Origin: Mucor racemosus
Taxonomy: Eukaryota; Mucoromycota; Mucoromycetes; Mucorales; Mucoraceae
Reading direction: 5' to 3'
Assembly (NCBI GenBank): GCA_027405735.1
Contig: JAPEHQ010000022.1
Span: 806,001-870,000, forward strand
DNA: 64,000 bases
Every line of letters starts with the position of its first letter. Within the stretch, counting starts at the first letter, position 1. The position numbers were made by a program, and so were the translations under genes. This document shows positions 48,480 through 64,000 of this stretch, one piece after another. The notes below the pieces were generated by a model. That model ran no database searches. It was not told where the DNA came from and was given only the letters and a program-made list of their open reading frames with translations.

Positions 48480-48617
48480 TATAATTATAATGGCATAAGT
48501 AAGGATTGACACTAAAATTTAGTATGAAAACACTGTTCTAGACAGGTGCGTAAGCAATCCTTAAATCAAATATAAATAGCAGTAGACTGAAATGTCAAAA
48601 GAGTCTATATAAATAAC

Positions 48618-49798
48618 CTGTACTCATCTTTTCGTAAATGACTACTTATTGTTACTCCTCGGTTTGAAAACATACTCCTAAAACATACTCCTCAAAAAAT
48701 AGCGTACGCTATTTTTTAATTTCTCGGTATTATGAATATTGAAATTAATTTTGGAAACTTTAGAGGGCTTTCTGGTATGAACATGCACCTACATTTGAAA
48801 GGATGAGTTTTTTTAACCATTTTTGTTTGAGAAATACTTAGCAAAGTAAAACATACTCCCAACAATTAGTCATTTCAGATACCGTTGTCCCACATACTCC
48901 TCATAAAAAAGACATGCTCCTCAAATACAGTGTACTCTATTTTTTAATTTCTCGGTACTATGAGTATTGAAGTTGATTTTTAAAGCTTTAAAGTGCTGTC
49001 TGATATGAACATGCACCTATACTTGAAAGGATTAATTTGTTTAAGCTTTTATACTTGAGAAATGCTCATCAATGTAAAACATACTCCCAAGATTGAGTCA
49101 TTTCAGATGCCGTTGTCCAATATACTCCTCATAAAAAAGACATGCTCCTCAAAATACAGTGTACTCTATTTTTTAATTTCTCGGTATTATGAGTATCAAA
49201 ATTGATTTTTAAAGCTTTAAAGTGCTGTATGATATGAACATGCACCTATATTTGAAAGGATTAATTGTTTTAAGCATTTTTGCTTGGGAAATGCTCAACA
49301 AAGTAAAACATACTCCCAAGATTGAGTCATTTCAGGTACCGTTGTCCCACATACTCCTCATAAAAAGACATGCTCCTCAAAATACAGTGTACTCTATTTT
49401 TTAATTTCTAGGTACTATGAGTATTGAAGTTGATTTTTAAAACTTTAAAGTGCTGTCTGGTATGAACATGCACCTATATTTGAAAGGATTGATTTTTATA
49501 AGCATCTTTGCTCGAGAAATGCCCACCAAAGCAAAACATACTCCCAAAAATTAGTCATTTCAGATACCGTTGTCCAACATACTCCTCAAAATATAGCGTG
49601 CTGTATTTTTTAGTTTCTCGGTACTATGAGTATTGAAATTAATTTTTAAAACTTTAAAAAGCTGTCTGATATGAACATGCACCTGCACTCAAAAAGATTA
49701 GTTTTTTTAAGAATTTTTGCTTGAGAAATGCTCAACAAAGTAAAATATACTCCCAAGATTGAGCCATTTCAGATACCGTTGTCCAACATGCTCCTGTA
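48618..49798 (+). repeat. Tandem array 1 (about 5 units of 205-233 bp)
   Basis: Each unit contains ACATACTCC, a palindromic core such as AATAGCGTACGCTATT (about 48699) or AATACAGTGTACTCTATT, then TTTTTTAATTTCTCGGTA, GATATGAACATGCACCTA and TCATTTCAGATACCGTTGTC. Core positions are near 48700, 48927, 49155, 49382 and 49590. The array is bordered on both sides by TCTTTTCGTAAATGACTA (near 48629 and 49804). The short open frame over a unit at 49222 is repeated in array 2 and is not a gene. Confidence 0.85.
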
Positions 49799-49854
49799 CT
49801 CATCTTTTCGTAAATGACTACCTGTAACCAGTATTATGTAAATGACTATCCATA

Positions 49855-49876
49855 CCTTCGCCTCGGCGAAGGTAGG
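49855..49876. other. Perfect hairpin TACCTTCGCC/GGCGAAGGTA
   Basis: Ten-base stem around a 2-base centre, directly in front of the 36-bp minisatellite whose first bases (GGCGAAGG) match its right half. Confidence 0.55.
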
Positions 49877-49884
49877 CGAAGGTG

Positions 49885-50208
49885 GGCGAAGGTTTTGAGT
49901 TTAAAAATGACTTGTTGGAGGGCGAAGGTTTTGAGTTTAAAAATGACTTGTTGGAGGGCGAAGGTTTTGAGTTTAGAAATGACTTGTTGGAGGGCGAAGG
50001 TTTTGAGTTTAGAAATGACTTGTTGGAGGGCGAAGGTTTTGAGTTTAGAAATGACTTGTTGGAGGGCGAAGGTTTTGAGTTTAGAAATGACTTGTTGGAC
50101 GGCGAAGGTTTTGAGGTTAAAAATGACTTGTTGGAGGGCGAAGGTTTTGAGTTTAGAAATGACTTGTTGGAGGGCGAAGGTTTTGAGTTTAGAAATGACT
50201 TGTTGGAG
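49885..50208 (+). repeat. 36-bp minisatellite, 9 copies, 12-residue coding periodicity
   Basis: Nine tandem copies of GGCGAAGGTTTTGAGTTTA plus 17 further bases. As 36 is a multiple of 3, + strand frames stay open across it; one reads GEGFEFRNDLLE nine times. I see no convincing start or gene structure, so I call it a repeat. It ends 54 bp from the stop codon of the convergent zinc-finger gene. Confidence 0.85.
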
Positions 50209-50262
50209 GGTGAAGGTGGCCCGCTGTATGCTGATACCTTCGCTTTACTACATTATGAACTT

Positions 50263-52526
50263 TCAATGCCATCAGTACAGTCAGACATATTATCGTCTGT
50301 ATGGCCAGACATATAATCGTCTGTTACATGAGTAGAATCAGAAGCATTATCAACATGGTCGCCTTCGTCAATAACAGTTTCTTAATTTTTTTATTAATTT
50401 TTTTTTTTATTAATTTTTTAAAAACAAGTATAAAACAAACTACTATATTGAATCATGTCGCTTACCTGAATTTCCAAAGTCAAACATTCCTTCGTTCAAG
50501 AATATCCCATACACAATGGTAGCCCTAAAACAATAGACCATGATTGCATGTATTTTTGTTAAATCTTTTAGATTTTTAAAACTGCCATCATTCTTCAGAA
50601 AAAAAAAGTTGGAGTATGCTGTTGAGGGCAATTTTTGCGGTATTCCAGCAATTACATCGGTTGGCAATGGATTTTGACAACAAACAATGCTCATGTTCAG
50701 GTCAAGCAACAAAATTTCCATAAATTTGCTGTCTGCATCCTCATTTGAAGCCTCATTAAGCAGTTTCATCAACTTGTCCTTCTGGTTTGTGTTTATGAGT
50801 CTGAATCTTTTCAAAAACCAGAATTCAACTGCATCTGTTTCCTCACTTCTTGAATATACAGTTCTAGCAAGCATGATAATCATGTTTGCCCACTGATTGG
50901 AATATTGTTTTAAGGTTCCTGGTTGTAGTGATCCTAATCCACGAGTTGATAGACTATATGTAATAATGTTATGTTATATGTGCAATTTCAGTATCGTCCA
51001 CTGCATCTACTTACTTTTCGCCAAGTCTTAATGTTTTGGATTTTTGCCGCCAAAAATACCCTTCAGATGATTTTATCATCATGCTATTCAGCCTATAAAA
51101 AAAGTTATGAACTGTTTTACGAATGTTGTCATATGCTGGGCACACTTTTTCGATTTCGCGAGCAGCAAATTTGTACAGGATTTTTCTCAGCTGCATGGAA
51201 CTTTGTTGGGTTTCGTCCAAAGTCCTGAATCCTTCATAGAATTGATGCAATTTAAAATGTTCCATAAACGAGTTGTTCAGCTTGTCACGATGATCATACA
51301 GATTTGTATCATCACCATACTGATTTACATTCATGACACTTTTAGCATTTGGATTACTAGCAAAAAAAATGTCTTGCTGTTGTTGGCCAGTTGATGAAAG
51401 TTGCACTCCTAGTTGTTGAGTCTACTCAAAAATGGTTATATGGATCCAATGACATGTTGTATAATGCTACCTACTTTAATACAATAATATTTGGCTCTAT
51501 TGTTACCAAATACTGTTTGCAATTTTCGACTGAATGTGTTATTTTCAGACCAAAACTCTGGGTGAGTTGTTCTGAAATGGTGCTTCATTGTTAAATCAGA
51601 GGCTGTTGCGTAAAATACGTCCATTTCATCACAAATAGTACATACAAGCCCATCGACAATAGAGAGTACAGTGATGCAGTTTAATTCATCTTTTGATGGA
51701 TGAGTATAGTATCCCATATCTTCCCCTTTGTTTCCTCCTTGTTCCAAAAGTTTTTCTAAAAAATCAGCTTTTGTAATTTTCGGGGAGTTGTTGCGAAAAA
51801 AATGCCCATTTCTCTTTAAATGACTGAATACTACCTTTGGTTCGATTGCTTGCTGGCAGTACTGACAGATAATTGCGCCTGATTCTCTGTGAATCAGTAA
51901 CCCCAAATCCTTGTAAAAACTAACATTGAAGTCGCTGTCTAATAATAATAAAAAATATATATATATATTATAATGTAAACTCTGTCTCTTTGCAAATGTG
52001 TCTTACTGAATTGTGTGATTTGGGTCTCCCCATCGTAAGTGGTTTCGTCCATATCCACTCCCACATCCTCATCCTCAACCTCGCCTTCTTCTTCTTCTTC
52101 TTCTTCTTCTTCTTCTTCGTTTTGGTTACTAGCCTCATTGATGAGTGGGGCAGGACTTTGATTGGTACCTTGTTGAGTATCACTACTCTGATTCGCGTCA
52201 TGAAGGTTTTGAGCTTGTTTAGCTCGCTCAATATCAGCGGCTAGGGTGCAGTTTTTTACATGATTCGAGATGTTTTTTGTTGATGCTCTTGCAAACTCAC
52301 CACATGGGCAATGGAATTTGCCATCTTCCTTTCTTTCCAAGCGAAATTTAGCTATTTTTTTTTTTTGCAAAATATTTTATAAACAGCTTTCCACTTTAAA
52401 AAGTTTACTTACGATTGAATTTGGTTGTCATAGTAACGTCTTCTTGATGAGCATCTCGTACATGTGTCTTGCGTTTCTTGGCATCTGTGAACGATTTATC
52501 GCACTGAGTACAGTTGAATGATTCCA
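50263..52526 (-). CDS. Zinc-finger protein with OrsD-like Cys/His module, copy A
   Basis: Six exons: 52412-52526, 52007-52351, 51475-51938, 51015-51421, 50466-50953 and 50263-50390; 648 aa; every junction keeps phase. An N-terminal C2H2 finger (C6, C9, H22, H27: NCTQCDKSF..THVRDAH) is followed by a second Cys/His motif (HCPCGEFAR..NHVKNC), a Glu run and a third module at 166-199: GLLIHRESGAIICQYCQQAI..HLKRNGH. The third resembles the start of the OrsD/DUF3505 family of ascomycete proteins. The rest is helical (RTLDETQQSS, IEKVCPAYDNIRKTV, LLLDLNMSIVCC) with an acidic C-terminus. It is divergent from the helicase at 52741, with 214 bp between starts. The partial paralogue at 63187 has the same three motifs. 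A DNA-binding role is likely, function unknown. Confidence 0.72.
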
Positions 52527-52740
52527 TATTGATTTGAAAATAAAAAAAGTATAAAGATAGAGATAAATTGAGAACGAATATTTTATTATTATACTCGAGT
52601 GGCCAATGTTTTGCCTGTGATATGATGCAAGCCATATATGGTCATAAAAAACAACGCCCCTAATTCATGTACTTTTTTAATAGTATTATTTTTTCAATTA
52701 TTGATTCAAATTTAAACATATACAACAAGAATCCTGAAAT

Positions 52741-53626
52741 ATGCCTTTATCTTCAGGGACAAATAACGATCGCTTGCAGCAATTAATTCAAGACGTACAA
52801 CTTGAGAATGGTTTAGCTGCAAGAGAGAATATGCAGCAATCCCGTTCAGAGGGATACAATGATTATTTCTATTGGCTACAGGATAATCAGAATACAGCAT
52901 TCAATAGCCATATTGCTGCTCTTCGACTTGGAAGAGAAATCTTGGCCGATGACTCTGTTATTCCCAACATTATTTGGGACAATGACAACAGGTTTGAAGG
53001 CTTAACTTGCAACGGGGTGCGTTTTTCATTGGATAAACTGCGTAAGCTGGTTATTGATCTGTCAAACCTTGCCCATAGTATCATGGTTAATAAACTTTTG
53101 TTTGGATCAGCGTTACCACAATTGCTTGATGCGTCAAATCCAAATGAAACCGAATTCACAGATAAGATGCAAAATACACAAACTGGCTATTCATTTCAGA
53201 ACGATTTGTCAAACCCAACGTTGACAGCTAAAAAAACAAGAATGTATATCCTGGATATAATCCACAACGACCCTACTTTGTGCATCAAGTTCTTTTCTGG
53301 AAATGGCACTCCTAATCCTATCGCTTTTGGTGCTTGGTTGAAAGACTGTGGTAAATTTGTTAGAGTGTTGCTACTCTTGGTACACTTGACTTCAGGTCAG
53401 CCAAGTAGAATGTCTGAACTCACCGAGGCTAGTACCATCTGTAATCCCCATGAGGGAGGAACCAGAAGTTTATATTTTGTGCATAACACTATTATGTTGG
53501 TTCAAAGTTACAACAAGTCAAAAGCCATAACTGGTCAAGAAATGTTGGTGGCAAGATTTTTGCCAAAGTATCTTCTTCCCATGTTCCTAACTTACTTGGT
53601 CTGTGTTAGACCAATTGAACAGTGAG

Positions 53627-53666
<40 letters not shown>

Positions 53667-54127
53667 ATTTGATTATGATTGGAGTGATTTAACAATTTTG
53701 TTCCTAGATTATGCGTGGACTATGTTTATCCTAATATGTCTGATGTAGAAAGAAACAAGATAAAAGCAAACTATAGAGATATGCTTTTCGTTGAAAATGG
53801 TAAACTACTTTCCACTACTCAAGTAACTAATACTTTAGCAAGGTAAATTGGTTTGAATCACACTGCGTTTGAAAAAAAACAAGTATATACTAATCAACAT
53901 GTATGCTTGTTTAGATATTCGGCAAGATTTATTAATGCACGAATCACAGTTTCAATGTACAGACAAATAGCTGTATGCTTGATGTGGGTTTGGATTGCCC
54001 ACTTTGATAGGATTACTGGTCATACTCTCACCGAAGAAGAATCACAAGAGCTCACAGAATATGCAGATATGAGACAAGCAAGAGAAATTGACGGTTTAAT
54101 GTATAATGAACAGGTATATTGTTGTGG

Positions 54128-54165
<38 letters not shown>

Positions 54166-55593
54166 TGACTTGATAAAACTGATTCAATCTTTCTTTGCAT
54201 ATGCAGTCTGCTCATAGCAGATCTGTTGGCAACCGTTTTTACGGTTATTCTACCAGTGATTTCAGACACCTTGGCAGAGAGGCACTCCATAACTTTTGGC
54301 TTTGCTCTAAAGAATGGGGATTATTGTTGAGTAAGTATTTCATGTATATACTAAAACTTGATTTGCTCATCAGTTGAATAGACCTTCCTTATGCTGCATC
54401 AGATATTCCAACAAAATCAAGCACTGTAATCAAAAGAGTCAATTTGCATGATATTGAAAGTGATCGGCCCTTTTCCAAACGTAATTATAATACAATAGTT
54501 ACTAGTTAATCCTTGAATACTAACAATATCGTTTTTTTTTTTCTAGTTCGTTGTGATAATGAATCCCGTTCAAATCAAGCTCTGACAATTGTCAATAACT
54601 TTGCAGTTGAAAACAATGTCATTATAAATGCTCCAAATGTCAATTATGCTGTCGCAGGTAAATATTTGAACATTTTCATGTATTTTCCATCCTAACGCAT
54701 GTGTAAACAACCTAGCTCCTATTTCATTTGCACTTTTGGCAGAATTGCGTAGTTTCTTAAAAGACAATAATGCTAAATTCTCTTGCCCAGAGCAAGCAAT
54801 CGCGATTAATGCAGTTTTAAATATCAAGAAGGATATGTTGATTGTGCTACCAACTGGGGCGGGGAAAACCCTTGTGTATATGCTACCAATTTACATTTAT
54901 AAAAAGAATCCTGCTCGTCGCATGATGACAATTGTCATTGTCCCTCTTGTGGCATTGACATTTGATCTGAAACGGCGTTGTCAGGATTCCGGAATCACAT
55001 ACACTACGTGGAAAGGTATTCTTTTTTTTTTCTATTTATTTACAGAAACACAAAGACTTACACTGGCTTGTATCATGTTAGATTATGCTGATAATAGTGA
55101 TAGAAATGCCGATATCTTGTTTCTGGCTATAGAACAGTGAACTGACCTGTCTCTATTGGCTTTTATAGATGAAAAGTATCAAAGCAACGAAATCACTGCC
55201 ATTTTTGTGGAAGAGGCACATTTGATTATATCTTGGAGTGACTTTCGCCCTCATTTCAATGATTTACCATCGTTCAGAAGATATAATTCAATTCCATGGA
55301 TTTTACTCTCTGCTACCGTGCCATACTATCTCGAGCAAGAACTATCCAAAATGTTTGGTAATATGTCAGTTGTTCGCAAAAACTCCAACCGCCCAAATTT
55401 GGTATTCTATTGTAAATTGATTGATAACAATATCGAGATCACCAATTATGTTTGGGTTTGGATACAAAAACATTGCTTGCGACAACGTAAACCCACTATC
55501 GTATACGTTCGAGAGATCAAAGATATCGATAATCTGGTTTTTCATTTAAACAAATTGTCCACACAAAGCCTGTACTCATCTTTTCGTAAATGA
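52741..55593 (+). pseudogene. Broken recombinase-like/RecQ-like helicase gene, copy A
   Basis: Exons 52741-53621, 53708-53842, 53915-54113, 54207-54330, 54382-54480, 54547-54657, 54716-55015 and from about 55051 on mirror those of the intact paralogue at 58953-63061. Lesions: in-frame TGA at 55138-55140 where the paralogue has Cys (LAIEQ-stop-TDLSLL against LAVEHCTDLSLL); Walker B DEAH is EEAH (FVEEAHLIISW); and the frame runs into tandem array 2 at about 55570 (after KLSTQS), losing helicase motifs V-VI and the Cys-rich C-terminus. Walker A (LPTGAGKT) and the recombinase-like residues (GQPSR, YNK, YRQ, AHS, FYGY) are intact. The upstream part may still be expressed as a truncated protein of about 590 residues. 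Confidence 0.75.
53631..53660. repeat. Poly-A tract inside an intron of copy A
   Basis: About 29 A within the intron 53622-53707. A T run of about 32 lies in a later intron (54130-54162). Both introns in copy B lack such long runs. Confidence 0.7.
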
Positions 55594-57360
55594 CTAGCTA
55601 TTGTTACTCCCCGATTTGAAAACATACTCCTAAAACATACTCCTAAAAAAATAGCGTACGCTATTTTTTAATTTCTCGATATTATGAGTATTGAAATTGA
55701 TTTTTAAAACTTTAGAGGGCTATCTTGTATGAACATGCACCTACTTTTGAAAAGATTAGTTTTTTTAAGCATTTTTGCTTGAGAAATGCTCAACAAAGTA
55801 AAACATACTCCCAAGAATTAATCATTTCAGATACCGTTGTCCAACATGCTCCTCAAAATACAGCGTGCTGTATTTTTTAATTTCTCGGTTCTATGAATAT
55901 TGAAATTAATTTTTAAAGTGTTAAAGTGCTGTCTGATATGAACGTGCACCTATATTTGAAAGGATTGATTTTTATAAGCATCTTTGCTTGAGAAATGCTC
56001 ACCAAAGTAAAACATACTCCCAAGAATTAGTCATTTCAGATACCGTTGTTCAACATACTCCTCGAAATACAGCGTGTTGTATTTTTTAATTTCTCGGTTC
56101 TATGAATATTGCAAATAATTTTTAAAGTGTTAAAGTGCTGTCTGATATGAACGTGCACCTATATTTGAAAGGATTGATTTTCATAAGCATCTTTGCTTGA
56201 GAAATGCTCACCAAAGTAAAACATACTCCCAAGATTAAGTCATTTCAGATACCGTTGTCCAACATGCTCCTCAAAATACAGCGTGCTGTATTTTTTAATT
56301 TCTCGGTTCTATGAATATTGAAATTAATTTTTAAAGTGTTAAAGTGCTGTCTGATATGAACATGCACCTATATTTGAAAGGATTAGTTTTTTTAAGCATC
56401 TTTGCTTCAGAAATGCTCAACAAAGTAAAACATACTCCCAAGATTGAGTCATTTCAGGTACCGTTGTCCCACATACTCCTCATAAAAAGACATGCTCCTC
56501 AAAATACAGTGTACTCTATTTTTTAATTTCTAGGTACTATGAGTATTGAAGTTGATTTTTAAAACTTTAAAGTGCTGTCTGGTATGAACATGCACCTATA
56601 TTTGAAAGGATTGATTTTTATAAGCATCTTTGCTCGAGAAATGCCCACCAAAGCAAAACATACTCCCAAAAATTAGTCATTTCAGATACCGTTGTCCAAC
56701 ATACTCCTCAAAATATAGCGTGCTGTATTTTTTAATTTCTCGGTACTATGAGTATTGAAATTAATTTTTAAAACTTTAAAAAGCTGTCTGATATGAACAT
56801 GCACCTGCACTCAAAAAGATTAGTTTTTTTAAGAATTTTTGCTTGAGAAATGCTCAACAAAGTAAAATATACTCCCAAGATTGAGCCATTTCAGATACCG
56901 TTGTCCAACATGCTCCTCAAAATACAGCGTGCTGTATTTTTTAATTTCTCGGTACTATGAATATTGAAATTAATTTTTAAAACTTTAAAGTGCTGGCTGG
57001 TATGAACATGCACCTATATTTGAAAGGATTAGTTTTTATAAGCATCTTTGCTTGAGAAATGCTCACCAAAGTAAAACATACTCCCAAAAATTAGTCATTT
57101 CAGATACCGTTGTCCAACATGCTCCTCAAAATACAGCGTGCTGTATTTTTTAATTTCTCGGTTCTATGAATATTGAAATTAATTTTTAAAGTGTTAAAGT
57201 GCTGTCTGATATGAACGTGCACCTATATTTGAAAGGATTGATTTTTATAAGCATCTTTGCTTGAGAAATGCTCACCAAAGTAAAACATACTCCCAAAAAT
57301 CAATCATTTCAGGTACCGTTGTCTCACATACTTCTCATAAAAAGGCATGCTCTTCTATTT
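55570..57360 (+). repeat. Tandem array 2 (about 8 units of 205-233 bp)
   Basis: Same unit and direction as array 1. It starts with TCTTTTCGTAAATGACTA (near 55582), abutting the truncated helicase. Palindromic cores are near 55655, 55860, 56076, 56278, 56505, 56714, 56924 and 57130. The block 56453-56917 is almost identical to 49331-49795 of array 1 (one difference noticed), so part of one array was recently copied from the other. It ends near 57360, 130 bp before the next gene. Confidence 0.85.
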
Positions 57361-57489
57361 TTTATTTGTAGCGTTTTCTTTTTCTGATATTTCTTTTTAA
57401 ATATTAAAATACGCACTTCAACTCTAGTAAGGATCGATATATATATTATAAAGATATTACATATTAACCGACAACATATACTTTAGATT

Positions 57490-58416
57490 ATGGAATCATA
57501 CAGAAGAATTTTTGCTAAATTACGCGAAAAAGTAGAGGATGATCCGTTCTATAATCATGAAAACGAGGTGGAGCTCGCGTTTCAAATAATATCAGCGTTT
57601 GAAGCAATTTCTACGTGTAAGTCTGGCATATGTTTTTTATATGAATTGAACTAAAATGGCATTAATCTACTAGATACTGTAGGAATACAGTTAAAAAATG
57701 ATATTGTTGACGCATTTAGAGAGATACAAAATGATATGAACAAAGAAGCTACTTCAGTTATTAGTATCGAAGAAAGTGATGAAGATGTCTTTGAAATTCC
57801 AGAACTTGCAATGATGAGACCAATACAAGGGATGGAAGAGGATGAAGAGCAAAGTATAGTTGAAGATGATGGCAACGATATTATTGTAACTCATGAACGA
57901 ACATTGAAAAGACCTAGAAAAAGAGTTCAAAATAAAAATAAAAAGCAACATATCAACATGGGCTGGATTAAAAACAGACTATCAAATCATGCATATAAAA
58001 GTAAGCATATATAACATTGCTCAACTCTACATGTGTCTCATCCACAATTCTATTTAGACTTTCATTTGTTTTTTGGAGATGAGGAGAAATTAAGAAAAGT
58101 CGTAAAGGAAAGGTTTACTTTAATCCTTCAAGCCAGTAATAGCTTAGAAAATAGAGATGTTGCTAATATAGTGGATCTTCAAGGAATACCCATTGATTTG
58201 CAGGATGCAATTGTTTGCTATTTGGATGCCACAACTAAAAAGACTACCGAAAATTTTAGAGCATACAGCATTGCAAAAACAATAGCAGATAAGGTGGATA
58301 ACGCTAATAGTGGATTCGACACATTAGAGAGTAAAAGAAAGCAGATCAAGCATATTTATGCAATATTGAGAAGTACTAAAAATGCATTGCTGCTAAAGAA
58401 ATACATAGCAACTTAA
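57490..58416 (+). CDS. Unrecognised gene between the two helicase copies (270 aa)
   Basis: Exons 57490-57616, 57674-58000 and 58058-58416, all phase-correct, stop TAA 58414. The N-terminal helix reads ESYRRIFAKLREKVEDDPFY, followed by an acidic stretch (SIEESDEDVFEIPE), a basic nuclear-localisation-like patch (KRPRKRVQNKNKK) and a helical C-terminal half (FGDEEKLRKVVKERFTLILQ, IPIDLQDAIVCYLDATTKKT). I recognise no family. Its position next to the array and the helicase module suggests it could be an accessory gene of the same element. Confidence 0.55.
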
Positions 58417-58426
58417 CACTATTGAT

Positions 58427-58760
58427 ATGATAGAATCTTTCAAAACCCCAGGTGAAGGAACTAATTTTGGTCTGCATTGCAAAAAGTGTAAGATACTGGC
58501 TGATAGAGTGGGATTGTTTGCTTTGGTAATTCCAGAAGTGTTTTCAAAAGATTTTATTTTAAAGGTAACGAAGGGTGTATGGATTTATGATGATGGAATG
58601 AGATATACGAGCACTCATTATTTTGTTTTCTCTTTTTTATAAGAATGTCAACGAGGAAAATGTAGAGAACATCTATAATGTAGCAGAAAGTCAATTAGCT
58701 GATAAGCTAATGGATGCTGCAATTGTAGATGGTATATATGTTATAGAAGGAGAAGAATAA
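58427..58760 (+). CDS. Small unrecognised two-exon gene (84 aa)
   Basis: Exons 58427-58564 and 58644-58760, joined across GTAACG..TATAAG in phase 0, stop TAA. It contains FGLHCKKCKILADRVGLFAL, a C-x-x-C pair in a helical context. Its ATG is 10 bp after the stop of the preceding gene, so it may be a further part of that gene (through another splice form) rather than separate. It ends 192 bp from the convergent helicase stop. Confidence 0.4.
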
Positions 58761-58952
58761 AATAAACAATATGTAAAGTAGTGGTATACTGCTGGGTGAT
58801 GATGATTGAAATACATTTTTGTTTGATGGATTTTAAAAGGATAGAAGAGGAATTGCTGGATGATATTATACTTGAGAATCATTTATTACATTAGCTGTTG
58901 TAGTAGGAAACAATTTATTTATTGATGTTAGAATATAGTTTGATGGTTTCGT

Positions 58953-61900
58953 TTAAATTTCTTTGAGGTAAAAATACTTGAACAAAAAGCCAACAAGGAC
59001 AAGATAGTTATATATGACATACTTTGAGTTCTTTGAAAAGAGCCATTCATCAAATAAATTGTCGTTGGTAGGACAATCAACACTGAAGTTATGGAAAATA
59101 GGATTATTACTGTTGCGAAAGTACCACCAGCAAACAATTATATATTTATCCTTGAGATACCGAACGTTGCAGTTCCTAATAGTACTGTTTGTATGGAGAG
59201 CAATGCCTTCAATACTTTCATTTGGCATAAGACAACCATAGCATATTTCATATGGTGCGAAGTATTTACGTAAACTGATGGTTTTTTTTTTTTTTGCTGA
59301 TTAGATAAAACACTATTAATATCAATCTGAATTGAATTACTTACTTCTTTTTATATTTGCATTCTCTTGAGCCACAACCTGAATGAAAGCATTGTAAACA
59401 GAGGCTGTCATTTTGAATAATAGGGCAATGAGGCAATGCATGTTGATTATTTTCAATTGAAACACTGTCGCTTTCCAACGATTTGTTAAAAAAGCAAAGA
59501 GAACAAATGTCAAAGGCAAATTGGCTGTTATAGTCTTGCAATGCAATTAATAACGCCTTTTTTTCTATCAAATTAGCATTAATAGCAATAGTTTTTCTTG
59601 TAATTGATACAGAAATAGAATTTGAAAATTGCAGTGACTCTAAAAAGTGGGATTCCCTGTTGTTTGATGGTACAGTTAATACAGAAAGACTTGGATTTTC
59701 TCTATCGTGTTATTATTATCAGTATCTTCAAATGTGAATTTTTGTGGTTGTATCTTACTTTTGCTTATAGCATACATCACATAGCTCATTTGAGAGGTCA
59801 CTGAAACAACTAATTGCTACCTGATCAACAAGAGAATTGAGACCAAATCGTCTGCACTGTTTGTCATTCTATCGAGAATAGTTAGTAAAAGTTGATTTAA
59901 TGCAATTTGATTCATATATATATACATACTTTGAGAACATTCAAGTATCTTTTTAGCTGGTCTTGAGCAATGGAAAATTGCAAACTATTGTCATTACTAG
60001 GACGATAGCTGCCAAGTTTATCCAAATCTCTTTGGTTGGTAAAAGTGATGTAATAGGCCTTCTGGCCATCTCTACCAGCTCTTCCACCCATTTGAATGGC
60101 CTCTGGGCCACTATAGCTAGCACCAGCTTGAATTACAAATCGAACATTGCTCTTGTCGATTCCCATACCAAAGCTGGAAGTTGCAACAACGATAGGAGCC
60201 TTGTCATTCATAAATGCCATTTGGCTATTTTCCTTTTGCGTCTGATTCATTTTGGCATGATAGCCAACAGCTTGAATAGTGTCTGAGAATTCATTGATTT
60301 TTTTTACAAGTTCATCAACTTGGTCAATATATCTAACATATATAATTGTAGCATGTTTTTGAATGATGCATTTTGATTTCAAAAGATTCAAGACAGCTAA
60401 ATTAATGTCTTTTTCAAAATGGCACGTATAACTCAAATTTGGTCTATTACATGATTTTCGGATAACATTAATATTACCAAACATTTTGGACAACTCTTGC
60501 TCCAAATATACCGGGACAGTCGCCGACAGAAGAGTCCACGGAACTGACGCATAACGTCTGAATTGGGCCAAGTTGTTGAATTCTGTTCTGAAGGACCCCC
60601 AAGTGATACAAAGGTGAGCTTCATCCAGAACTATTCGAGCTATCTCATTTTTTTTATGCTTAACATCTAAAAAAGCCAGAAGACTTAAATCAGTACAATG
60701 CTCTACAGCAAGAAACAAAATATCAGCGTTTTCGTCGGTATTATCAGCTCCTAGTTTATTGGGAATAATATTAAGTGAGTTTTTATGATCTAATATTGAT
60801 GTGAATGATAAGCTACCTTTCCAAGTTGTGTAAGTAATATTTGACATGTTGCATCTGTTTTTCAAATCAAAAGTCAAAGCTACCAAAGGAACAATAACAA
60901 TTGTCATCATACTTTGGCTCACATGTTTTTTTTCAATAAACACAGGTAGCAAAAAGACAAGCGTTTTTCCAGCACCAGTTGGGAGGACTACCAACAGATC
61001 TTTCTTCGCATTCAATACCGCATTTACTGCGCTTGCTTGTTCCGAGCATGAGAACTTTGCTTCAGGATCCTGAAGAAAAGACTGTAACTCTTGTAACAAA
61101 GCATACGAGATGGGTTCTTGTTGAGAAAAAGATTAGACGTTATACATTGATGATAATATTTAAAGTTTACCTTCGACAGCAGTGTTTACATTTGGAGCAT
61201 TGATAATGATATTATTTTCAACGGCGAAATTGTTTACTACTGTAACTGATTGACTAGCTACATTATGAGAAAAACGACCTAGATAGGATGAGTAAAAGAT
61301 GCAAAATATGAATAAAGAACGAAATCAACCAAGTACATATAAGTATATTTACTTTTTGAAGCAGGAAGAGTATTATCATCATCACCATCATCATTGATAT
61401 TGATTCTTTTAATAGAGATTGATGTTGATGAAATTTCAAAATCAGAATATGGCAAGTCTATACATTATTTGATCAATTAGTAAATAGAATTCTAACAGCC
61501 AATATAATATACACTTACTCAATAATAAAGCCCATTCTTTGGAGCAAAGCATAAAATTGTGTAAATGCTCTCTACTCAAGTATCTGTAATCTTGGTTACT
61601 ATAACCGTAGAATCTAGTGCCGATGTTTCTACTATGTGCTGCCTACATTTTGTAAAAAAAAAGTGTTTTTTTTAAGAAAAGGCTAATATGTTTGAGAAGA
61701 GACGCCAACTTACTTGCTCATTATACAAAAGACCTTGATTGTCTCGTGTTGTACGGATATCTTCAAATCCTAGAACTTCATTCTCTTCTTCTTGAGAAAC
61801 AATATTATCAACAGCTATATTGAAGTGCTTGATCCAAACCCACATGAAACAGACAGATATTTGTCTATACATGGAAACTGTGAGGGTAGACCCAATAAAT

Positions 61901-63061
61901 CTTAAAGAATATCTGTACATGTACATGTTAGTAAAATGCTTTTTACATGCAGAAAATATTAAAAAATAAAATGAAAATACTTTGATAAACTGTTTGTTAG
62001 TTGAGCAGTAGTAAGAATTTTGCCGTTTACAACAAAGAGCATATCCCTATAGTTTGATATTCTCTTTTTTCTTTCTTTTTCAGAAAGTTCAGAATACAAT
62101 AAATGAGCACAAAACCTTTTACAAACTTGTTAAAGCTGTGATTTTACGAGGGAAAAAGGATCACTCTACAATATTATACTTACTTTTCCATTGGCCTTAC
62201 ACATACCAAATAGGTAAGGAAGATTGGCAATAAATATTTTGGCAGAAATCTTGCAATCATCATATCTTTTCCAGTTCTACTACGAGATTTATTGTACGAT
62301 TGGACAAACATCACCGTATTGTGTACCCAATACAAGCTTCTTGGCCCAGATTCAGTGTTACAAATGGAACTGGATTCCAACAGTTCTGTACCTCTGCTAG
62401 GTTGTCCACTTGTAAGATGTATGAGGATAGTCATAATCTTTACAAACTCGCCAGCATCCTTCATCCAACTTCCAAATGCAACCTTGTTTTCGGATGCTCC
62501 ATCACCGAGGAACTTGACACTTAAGTCAAAATCATTGCAAATGATGTTCAAAATATAAGATCTTTCCTCTTCTCGAGTTAATGAAGGATTAGATCTATCA
62601 TTGTAGAAAGAATAGCCAAACTTTGTATTTTGCATTTTTTCGATGAAATTTGTTTGCATTGGATTCTCTGGATCCAATAAATTGGGCAAAGGACGACCAA
62701 AAAGTAGCTTCTTCACCATTATATCAGTAGCAAGATTTGACAGGTCGGCTATCAATTTTCGCAATTTAGCTAGAGAAAAATGCTCGCCGTTGCATGTCAG
62801 ACCCTCAAATTGGTTATTGCTATCCCAAATAATGTTGGGTCGGGGAGCGTCTTCAGCAAGAATAGTTTTTCCCAACCGAAGGGCAGCAATATGGTCATAA
62901 AATGGTGTATGATTATCTTCATAAAGCCAATATAAATAATCGTTATAATTATTTGATCGAGAAGCTCCAATGTTATCCGATGCAATTTGGGCATGATTTA
63001 TTTGCAAGGTATGAATTAACTCTTGTAAATAATCGGGATCGGATTGTATAGATGAAGACAT
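58953..63061 (-). CDS. RecQ-like helicase with N-terminal tyrosine-recombinase-like domain, copy B (intact)
   Basis: Ten exons: 62184-63061, 61981-62115, 61714-61912, 61519-61642, 61353-61457, 61171-61278, 59930-61116, 59759-59868, 59345-59701 and 58953-59274; 1174 aa, no lesions. Helicase core: LPTGAGKT (Walker A, about 561-568), VPLVALTFDL, TTWKG, VLDEAH (about 679-684), LLSATVP, ATIIYVR, VVATSSFGMGIDK and QMGGRAGRDG (about 858-867). The C-terminus is Cys-rich (KQCRR, ELCDVC, ICSLC, CLQC, ICYGC), as in telomere-linked RecQ-type helicases. The N-terminal 430 residues carry GQPSRGTELL (R223), SYNKS (K258), SMYRQ (R354), AAHS (H407) and RFYGY (Y416/418), in the order and style of tyrosine recombinases. 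Starts 125 bp from the divergent zinc-finger gene. The recombinase reading is inference. Confidence 0.78.
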
Positions 63062-63186
63062 ATTTTCAGGTCAAACAATTAGAGATTACAGAGCATGAAA
63101 TAATACACGTATGGCACAGTTATTTAAAAACTATTTATAGTGGTCACCTAGTTGAGTTTTTCAGTAACCCTTTTAACTTTTATAAT

Positions 63187-64000
63187 ATGGAATTTGTTGA
63201 TTGTAAGGTCTGCGGCGAAGCATTCAAAAGCGAATATTTACGCAAGAATCATCATCGAATTATACATCAAATAGAATTGCAAGTCAAAACAATAAATAGT
63301 ACGTACAAAATAGAGTTAACATCAATGTCAATATTGATTTATTGATTTAATAAACTTTTTCCTTTAAAAATAAAACACAGATGAAAATCTTCAATTATTT
63401 AGAAAGGAAGATGGATGTTTTCATTGTCCATGTGGGTTTGCAAGACAATTACCCAGAAATGTGTCTAATCATGTCAGAAGCTGTCAAAGGCTTGTTTATA
63501 ATAAACAATCTGAAAACAGTAACGACAATGCTGCAATGCAGGCTGGTAGTAATATCAACCCAGAAGCAGATTTATTAGTTGAAAGCAATTTCAATCAAAA
63601 TATGCCAATGACGAACAATGAGCCAATGCCCCAAGAACTAGACGAAGAGGATGTTGAAAATATGGAGGAGGATGAAGACAATGCTGAGGAGACGATCAAT
63701 TTCCAGGGTGATACCCAAATATCTCGATTTAGTGGGTTTAATTTAACGGAAACACAAATATTGTACTAAATAATATTTCAATAGATCAAGATTACATTCT
63801 TAATTTCTATAACGACTTTGGTTTGCTTATCCATCGCAAATCTGGTGCGATTATATGTCTTTTATGTAGAATTGCAATTGAACCAAAAGCAACTTGGACC
63901 CACATGAAAAAAAATGGGCATTTCTTTGAAAAAAAATCACGTACTATATCCAGGATGGATTTTTTAAAAAAAATAAAGGATGCTGGTGCTATTGATAGAG
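63187..64000 (+). CDS. Zinc-finger protein with OrsD-like module, copy B (3' end outside the window)
   Basis: Exons 63187-63298, 63381-63731 and 63785 to beyond the window. The N-terminal finger has the same spacing as copy A (C6, C9, H22, H27). The second motif reads CPCGFARQLPRNVSNHV with a final Cys, then an acidic stretch (DEEDVENMEEDEDNAEE). The third motif, FGLLIHRKSGAIICLLCRIA followed by HMKKNGHFF, aligns with copy A. Exon lengths differ slightly but intron positions agree. Sequence identity to copy A is moderate (roughly half by eye), so the two modules are old paralogues. The divergent partner is the intact helicase. Confidence 0.7.

Follow-up and report, generated by a model that had tools for sequence, protein, structure and literature searches.

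Telomere-linked helicases occur in several fungal groups and, to our knowledge, the reason for their location at chromosome ends is still open, with no clear role having emerged for decades. A locus of Mucor racemosus that carries two copies (A and B) of a RecQ-like gene raises this question within a single stretch of 64,000 nucleotides (the window). According to the original prediction, made without database searches, the helicase is preceded by a tyrosine-recombinase-like domain and is paired with a divergent OrsD-like zinc-finger gene, the pair forming a transposon-like or telomere-associated module.

Gene organisation

58930..63061 (3' end approximate), minus strand: copy B gene, predicted tyrosine-recombinase-fold domain plus RecQ-type helicase (GT-AG splicing by eye, Pfam, homologue profile)
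63061-62184, 62115-61981, 61912-61714, 61642-61519, minus strand: exons 1-4 of copy B, borders by eye
61457-61353, 61278-61171, 61116-59930, 59868-59759, minus strand: exons 5-8 of copy B, borders by eye
59930..61116, minus strand: helicase core exon of copy B (DEAD and Helicase_C, Pfam)
63187..64000, continuing past the window to ~65249, plus strand: copy B OrsD-like zinc-finger gene, divergent to the helicase
63187-63298, 63381-63731, 63785-64245, 64304-64701 (GC donor), 64762-65249, plus strand: its exons, the last parts outside the window
52741..55571, plus strand: copy A recombinase-helicase gene, interrupted within the helicase at CCT
50443..52527, minus strand: OrsD-like gene of copy A, divergent to its helicase gene, limits set by eye (PF12013 at C22:857559-857888)

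The copy B gene comprises at least eight exons; further 3' exons carry Cys clusters, and their borders are not fixed. When the minus strand is spliced from 63061, about 445 residues precede the DEAD/Helicase_C helicase, and a profile built from database homologues scores the protein at 318 bits (residues 64-947). DEAD and Helicase_C reach 71.1 and 61 bits, over the Pfam cut-offs; the assignment to RecQ, rather than to another superfamily II helicase, is taken from homologue names alone. Copy A is broken within its helicase, and a relative on another contig (C24) continues past the break point.

The divergent partner of copy B is an OrsD protein, as proposed (PF12013, 33.2 bits against a cut-off of 26.6), encoded by a gene that extends beyond the window, and PF12013 lies over the cut-off at 13 of the 14 genome places listed. 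Since relatives are known in which an OrsD domain and RecQ form a single polypeptide, and eight divergent recombinase-helicase/OrsD pairs were seen in this genome, a chance neighbourhood was rejected as the origin of the two-gene layout.

Predicted active site and fold of the N-terminal domain

61607..62395, minus strand: recombinase active-site stretch of copy B (homologue alignments; fold of one homologue)
62395-62393, minus strand: R223, in SGQPSRGTEL
62386-62384, minus strand: E226
62290-62288, minus strand: K258, in YNKS
61866-61864, minus strand: R354, in TVSMYRQ
61636-61634, minus strand: H407, in AAHS
61609-61607, minus strand: Y416, in FYGY, which also holds Y418

The motifs and residue numbers originally proposed (R223, K258, R354, H407 and Y416/Y418) are exact in the spliced copy B, and copy A carries identical residues at the aligned positions, as had been claimed for its five catalytic positions. 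Homologues retain them too. In an alignment of 127 homologues and the two window copies (129 rows, gapped rows omitted column by column), the expected residue occupies 96 of 98 rows at R223, 95/95 at E226, 93 of 94 at K258, 84/84 at R354, 80 of 81 at H407 and 79 of 83 at Y416, while all six are present in each of 55 homologues hand-selected from the 127 for coverage of the core. Because the spacing from H to Y is nine, equal to that of XerD, lambda Int and Cre, Y416 was singled out over Y418.

Other features depart from the classical pattern. The HxxR box opens with a residue that varies among relatives (P, S, A, L, T, I and Q among others; column 393 of alignment A4) and is S in both window copies (S351 in copy B, by counting), so that the histidine or lysine of the classical R-H-R-Y tetrad is missing, and for this reason the domain is best labelled as a recombinase-fold domain whose active site is a variant rather than as a classical member. 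The gap between R354 and H407 in copy B is 53 residues, compared to 22-23 in XerD, lambda Int and Cre.

The fold itself, by which the original prediction was to stand or fall, was borne out on the model of one database homologue (23% identical to copy B across the core), together with the conserved R, K, R, H and Y. This model has a mean pLDDT of 87.5, with values below 50 in segments 787-789 and 791-804, which hold the counterparts of H407 and Y416. On structural re-alignment of the model, tyrosine recombinases rank above all unrelated entries among 50 rows; topoisomerase IB is missing from these rows, which excludes nothing. Foldseek alone gave no match at E <= 0.001 among 217 PDB matches, and no tyrosine recombinase among the 50 listed.

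Profile searches of the N-terminus, on the other hand, recognised no recombinase in Pfam, PHROGs or PDB sequences. Neither PF00589 nor another integrase profile matched the domain, and of the PDB sequence searches one was without matches and another gave six weak, unrelated ones. A PF00589 search of the own genome returned a single sub-threshold match, on C7, and a search of IMG/VR with protein P0002 returned none. Comparison with 81 XerD sequences by hhalign aligned the R, K, R, H and Y of the domain with those of the XerD active site, at a score (18.7) within those of column shuffles (mean 16.4, sd 2.8, maximum 24.1, n=100) and below those of the reversed profile (19.0) and of another slice of the same protein (20.6).

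The silence of sequence profiles and Foldseek is what would be expected if the region were no recombinase at all and its motifs coincidental. This reading is barely credible and largely refuted already by the structural re-alignment and by five residues that are invariant, in order, in the hand-selected 55. Random placement reproduced the residue pattern in 0 of 200000 trials, a crude test with criteria set afterwards, which the 53-residue gap of copy B would fail. A tyrosine recombinase/topoisomerase IB fold of the N-terminal domain, as modelled on the homologue, is therefore well supported, and the domain would presumably be catalytically active.

Head-to-telomere modules

48617..48644, plus strand: head II opening an older truncated array
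49793..49820, plus strand: remnant of head II, interrupted at CCT by head I
49821..49848, plus strand: head I, CCTGTAACCAGTATTATGTAAATGACTA
49821..55571, plus strand: A-type module from head I, its telomere side cut off by the B-type module
49849..50289, plus strand: 36-bp tandem array after head I
55569..55596, plus strand: head II, CCTGTACTCATCTTTTCGTAAATGACTA, adjoining the broken helicase A at CCT
55569..64000, on to contig position 875469 (5469 bases beyond the window), plus strand: B-type module, head II to telomere, 13.9 kb
55597..57416, plus strand: 209/228-bp tandem array after head II
57491..58416, plus strand: small spliced gene within the B-type module, no Pfam match at E <= 0.1

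Both copies belong to larger units, here called modules, which extend from a 28-bp head (CCTGTA-N11-GTAAATGACTA) outward to the TTAGGG telomere. The 13.9-kb B-type module is present almost identically on C6, and the two contigs diverge exactly at the head. A dyad in the head is expected of a classical recombinase site; when the heads were tested for one, 179, 35, 13 and 22 of 500 shuffles reached the observed score.

Genome-wide, 80 head matches were found at two mismatches or fewer (12 in the reversed control). The 55 exact heads all lie within 21 kb of a contig end and in a single polarity; ten of the 25 inexact matches sit inside contigs and resemble chance. Heads adjoin many unrelated flanks. 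All 45 distinct joints collected share an identical head start on the donor side, a constancy partly built in, since joints were located by the head. Eleven of them have no unbroken homologue among the loci compared, and 28 of the 34 with a known unbroken target fall on CCT, a joint being scored as CCT when at least one of the three most frequent unbroken continuations of the upstream 20 bases (two mismatches or fewer) starts with CCT; one of the 28 depends on the third most frequent continuation only. The other six comprise three in which a (CAAG)n repeat leaves the break position ambiguous, one with a CAT target, where the joint reads CATGTA, and two in head-III stretches. Many of the 45 joints lie in repeats; we read the list as about 20 independent contexts with CCT and one with CAT. 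The target sequence distal to the joint did not reappear farther along any of the ten ends checked (C1, C4, C25, C22, C44, C11:8814, C18, C9, C15 and C2).

Of 85 candidates for the recombinase-helicase, 48 were scored; the 92 matches listed are all no further than about 17 kb from a contig end, and telomere repeats were read at ten of 14 end stretches, and also at C22 and at C9, C12 and C15. The proposed telomere-associated, transposon-like module thus emerged stronger than expected from the mapping of the genomic copies and their termini, with a fixed inner end and a telomere at the outer one. It is well supported that these head-to-telomere modules replaced the distal parts of other chromosome ends at CCT.

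An unlikely alternative is that the protein is a host factor for telomere maintenance or heterochromatin, whose fold only binds or relaxes DNA in the manner of topoisomerase IB, the end exchange being ectopic recombination among repeats. R-K-R-H-Y without the HxxR histidine is the topoisomerase IB pattern too, which the active-site set fits, and identical blocks are shared by several chromosome ends, as ordinary homogenisation would also produce. However, homologous recombination leaves unexplained both the joints of 3-bp homology at one fixed donor base and the sequence identity that ends exactly at the head.

Proposed mechanism

The best explanation is probably that of mobile modules that end in a telomere and encode a recombinase-helicase by which chromosome ends are exchanged at CCT. 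The recombinase, with Y416 as the nucleophile, would nick or cut two CCT sites, one in the head and one in a target at a different chromosome end, and exchange their strands, so that the target chromosome gives up its original terminus and receives the module with its telomere. Three base pairs would be a short overlap for a tyrosine recombinase. The helicase may open or migrate the joint, and the OrsD zinc-finger protein—the front part of the same polypeptide in some relatives—may position the recombinase-helicase on DNA. Head-to-telomere units that are too short to hold these genes would ride along as non-autonomous elements. Head type matches gene type, which could result from linkage alone.

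It is rather unlikely that another nuclease cuts chromosome ends exactly at the head and that the freed telomere fragments are captured by broken ends via CCT microhomology, with the recombinase-helicase as passenger or helper. That CCT alone is common to the targets resembles microhomology, and the loss of the distal target on the ten ends fits such capture; but the constant head start, partly built in as it is, calls for a site-specific enzyme anyway, the module itself encodes an enzyme predicted to have the right fold, and the scanned module proteins included no other recognisable nuclease.

Comparison with known systems

Like Magnaporthe TLH, S. pombe tlh1/tlh2 and Ustilago UTASa with UTASb, the gene is RecQ-like, multicopy and subtelomeric, as telomere-linked helicases are defined. 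In the accessible text of the sources, Ustilago UTASa (RecQ) lies close to UTASb, which can carry an OrsD domain (PMC10532341), and truncated TLH regions are reported in Fusarium (PMC12857005). The accessible parts of the TLH literature searched name no recombinase domain, fixed inner joint or CCT target for these genes.

Since the fold matches tyrosine recombinases, KDZ transposons were set aside. Cryptons are likewise mobile DNA encoding a tyrosine recombinase and using short target homology. In the Crypton paper, 4-6 bp direct repeats are described, the elements are proposed to move as circles and carry short repeats at both ends, and the word 'helicase' is absent (PMC3212892). Crypton recombinases use R-H-R-Y and, unlike internal insertions between short direct repeats, the present modules have one fixed end only, the other being a telomere, with the distal target lost. 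One-ended and without a Crypton-type profile match, they are distinct from ordinary Cryptons, as originally proposed, and this identity was rejected.

Starship elements, with a DUF3435 captain, are also fungal and tyrosine-recombinase based in the descriptions available, but DUF3435 is missing from the list of 25 families for 21 homologues. Starships sit inside chromosomes. Bacterial integrons, as far as the available accounts go, likewise combine a tyrosine recombinase with arrays at a conserved site; here, in contrast, whole chromosome ends are exchanged, with no sign of cassettes moving between two sites.

HeT-A elements are telomere-directed, in uniform orientation and with nested truncated copies, as are terminons and MoTeR/FoTeR in the descriptions available. 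Retroelement-like end addition, with a chromosome 3' end that reads CCT serving as the priming site for an RNA whose own 3' end is fixed, would give the same fixed centromere-facing end, variable truncation opposite and uniform polarity. Such elements, however, use reverse transcriptase and join at telomere repeats, whereas the modules join at CCT and retain introns in both divergent genes. Of 429 RVT_1 candidates, 150 matches were scored (hence a lower bound), and none of these falls in a stretch from a head to its chromosome end; the closest of them, at C11:17542, lies beyond the heads of that end. End addition of this type is very unlikely and was rejected for modules with introns kept and no reverse transcriptase among the matches scored.

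Significance

The replacement of one module by another at a fixed 28-base joint suggests a new way of moving or remodelling chromosome ends. It is about as likely as not that telomere-linked helicases serve a new class of mobile elements as their enzymes. Such a chromosome-end transposon would be bounded on the inside by a recombination site and on the outside by the host telomere, and its tyrosine-recombinase-fold/RecQ protein would swap whole chromosome ends at CCT; the fused OrsD-recombinase-RecQ proteins of Ascomycota would act likewise. With defined heads, a CCT rule for targets and Y416 as the putative nucleophile, the mechanism is testable with oligonucleotides and one purified protein. 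The predicted recombinase fold, together with base-precise head-to-telomere modules, implies that telomere-linked helicases may be enzymes that move chromosome ends, which, if true, would allow rapid subtelomere turnover independent of both reverse transcription and long homology, and might also provide backup re-capping of broken chromosomes.

Architecture of the paired genes

The two recombinase-helicase genes of the window, copy A and copy B, are each divergently paired with a gene for an OrsD-like zinc-finger protein (PF12013):

58930-63061, minus strand: copy B recombinase-helicase gene, spliced, encoding a DEAD/Helicase_C helicase with ~445 residues in front of it
from 63187, plus strand: copy B OrsD gene, divergent, with a 603-residue product as spliced here and the OrsD domain at residues 172-279
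52741-55571, plus strand: copy A recombinase-helicase gene, laid out as copy B, with a break inside the helicase
about 50443-52527, minus strand: copy A OrsD gene, partner of copy A

The N-terminal recombinase fold proposed in the original prediction is very probably real, as judged from the predicted structure of a homologue. There is purifying selection (dN 0.33 against a saturated dS of about 2.8). The window spans positions 806001-870000 of its contig (C22), which is closed by TTAGGG repeats at position 875469; this places copy B roughly 12 to 17 kb from the contig end, with its OrsD partner nearer to it. A small spliced gene (57491-58416, plus strand), found in B-type modules and in their deleted derivatives, gave no match in a Pfam scan.

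Relatives in the databases

The 127 homologues (P0001-P0127) were collected with three queries in turn, namely copy B, P0002 and the alignment A2, with about 8000 candidates scored per search. Most carry no species name; the named ones belong to Aspergillus, Pyrenophora, Talaromyces, Pseudogymnoascus, Hortaea, Trichoderma, Penicillium and further genera of Ascomycota. P0021, from Penicillium, clusters with the window copies (support 0.93). According to precomputed Pfam assignments, P0010, P0020, P0077-P0079, P0082-P0085 and P0088 hold both OrsD and helicase in a single chain of 1414-1642 residues, and among the fused proteins with an organism name P0079 is from Plenodomus and P0080 from Pyrenophora. 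Since the profile of these homologues matches both the copy B helicase gene (318 bits, residues 64-947) and its OrsD partner (33 bits), the two divergent genes are best read as two halves of one architecture. The three-part set is not universal among the relatives: many lack the helicase and have just OrsD plus the middle domain, and these frequently come from short contigs. Numerous database entries that bear no functional name combine OrsD with the recombinase-fold domain, some including the helicase and some not.

Modules running from a head to the telomere

The genes lie in modules that extend from a fixed 28-bp inner end, the head, out to the telomere. Head I precedes A-type genes and head II B-type genes (7/7 each, in a table compiled by hand), and head II or a variant also precedes all six B-type copies without helicase. 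The C22 module matches that of C6 from its head (window 55569) to the telomere, listed as 100% identical up to window 64000 and 99.2% identical over the last 5.6 kb (5 mismatches, 34 gap openings), and the DNA ahead of the two heads is unlike. C19 has the same module (91.7% over its last 5.7 kb), and a 6.6-kb stretch is common to C22, C6, C19, C11 and C44 at about 100%.

In this genome of 54 contigs (53.2 Mb), tblastn with copy B gave at least 92 matches (48 of 85 candidates were scored), none of them farther than about 17 kb from the end of its contig. A genome search located 55 exact heads, which are spread over 21 contig ends and reach no more than 20.9 kb inward. The heads share one polarity: 53 of the 55 show it when assigned by nearest end, and for the exceptions the C41 telomere is on the right and C44 follows the C22 gene order. 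We are highly confident that mobile head-to-telomere modules exist.

Shorter forms also occur. Terminal units of 942-1136 bp, from head I to the telomere and too short for the genes, are found on C1, C9, C12 and C15. Six B-type copies, at the ends of C2, C13, C14, C17, C18 and C25, have one 4.2-kb internal deletion in common (junction at window 59123/63340, overlap about 2 bp), which takes out the first OrsD exon and nearly all of the recombinase-helicase gene; they look like non-autonomous derivatives. Weak module fragments (51-72% identity) occur at C17:1228500-1230354, and at one locus (L009, 4100-7300) kilobases of degenerate AT-rich telomere-like DNA separate the genes from the TTAGGG array.

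Joints between targets and heads

The truncated copies inspected (C1, C4, C25, C22 and C44) end at CCT, followed by one of two related 28-mers. Among 45 distinct flank-head joints, 34 had an unbroken homologue among the loci compared, and CCT stood at the joint in 28 of these. In one of the 34 the target has CAT and the joint reads CATGTA, so that the first three bases derive from the target. Heads are themselves interrupted at CCT by later heads. Target sequence sought farther out on the same end was not found on C1, C4, C25, C22, C44, C11:8814, C18, C9, C15 or C2.

A third head family, CCTGTACTCATCTAATCGTAAATGACCC, is present in several subtelomeres (e.g., L091, L104 and L107), frequently as short stacked stubs together with CCTGTACCCAA units. 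A 317-bp piece of helicase B (C11:10788-11104) is bounded at both sides, which simple end replacement does not explain.

Proposed mechanism

At Ustilago telomeres, RecQ-like sequences paired with OrsD sequences have already been described (PMC10532341). Passages of that paper and of PMC4522978, PMC12857005, PMC6431247, PMC3212892, PMC3627910 and PMC8381367 place no recombinase in telomere-linked helicases. In the literature searched, which covers papers free of subscription, no paper joined "telomere-linked helicase" with "tyrosine recombinase", and among the papers listed by word searches on related topics no title or opening of an abstract described such a system. This scope means that the absence of reports is not proof of novelty; as far as could be searched, what is new is a recombinase domain in these helicases and modules that run from a head to the telomere.

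The donor joint is base-exact, as expected if an enzyme of the recombinase family acted there. The observations available are the fold match, residue conservation, purifying selection and module geometry. In the proposed mechanism, strands would be exchanged at CCT between a head and a target at a different chromosome end, RecQ activity would help to expose or migrate the joint, and the target chromosome would gain the module together with its telomere. On balance, we favour the recombinase-fold protein as the driver of this movement.
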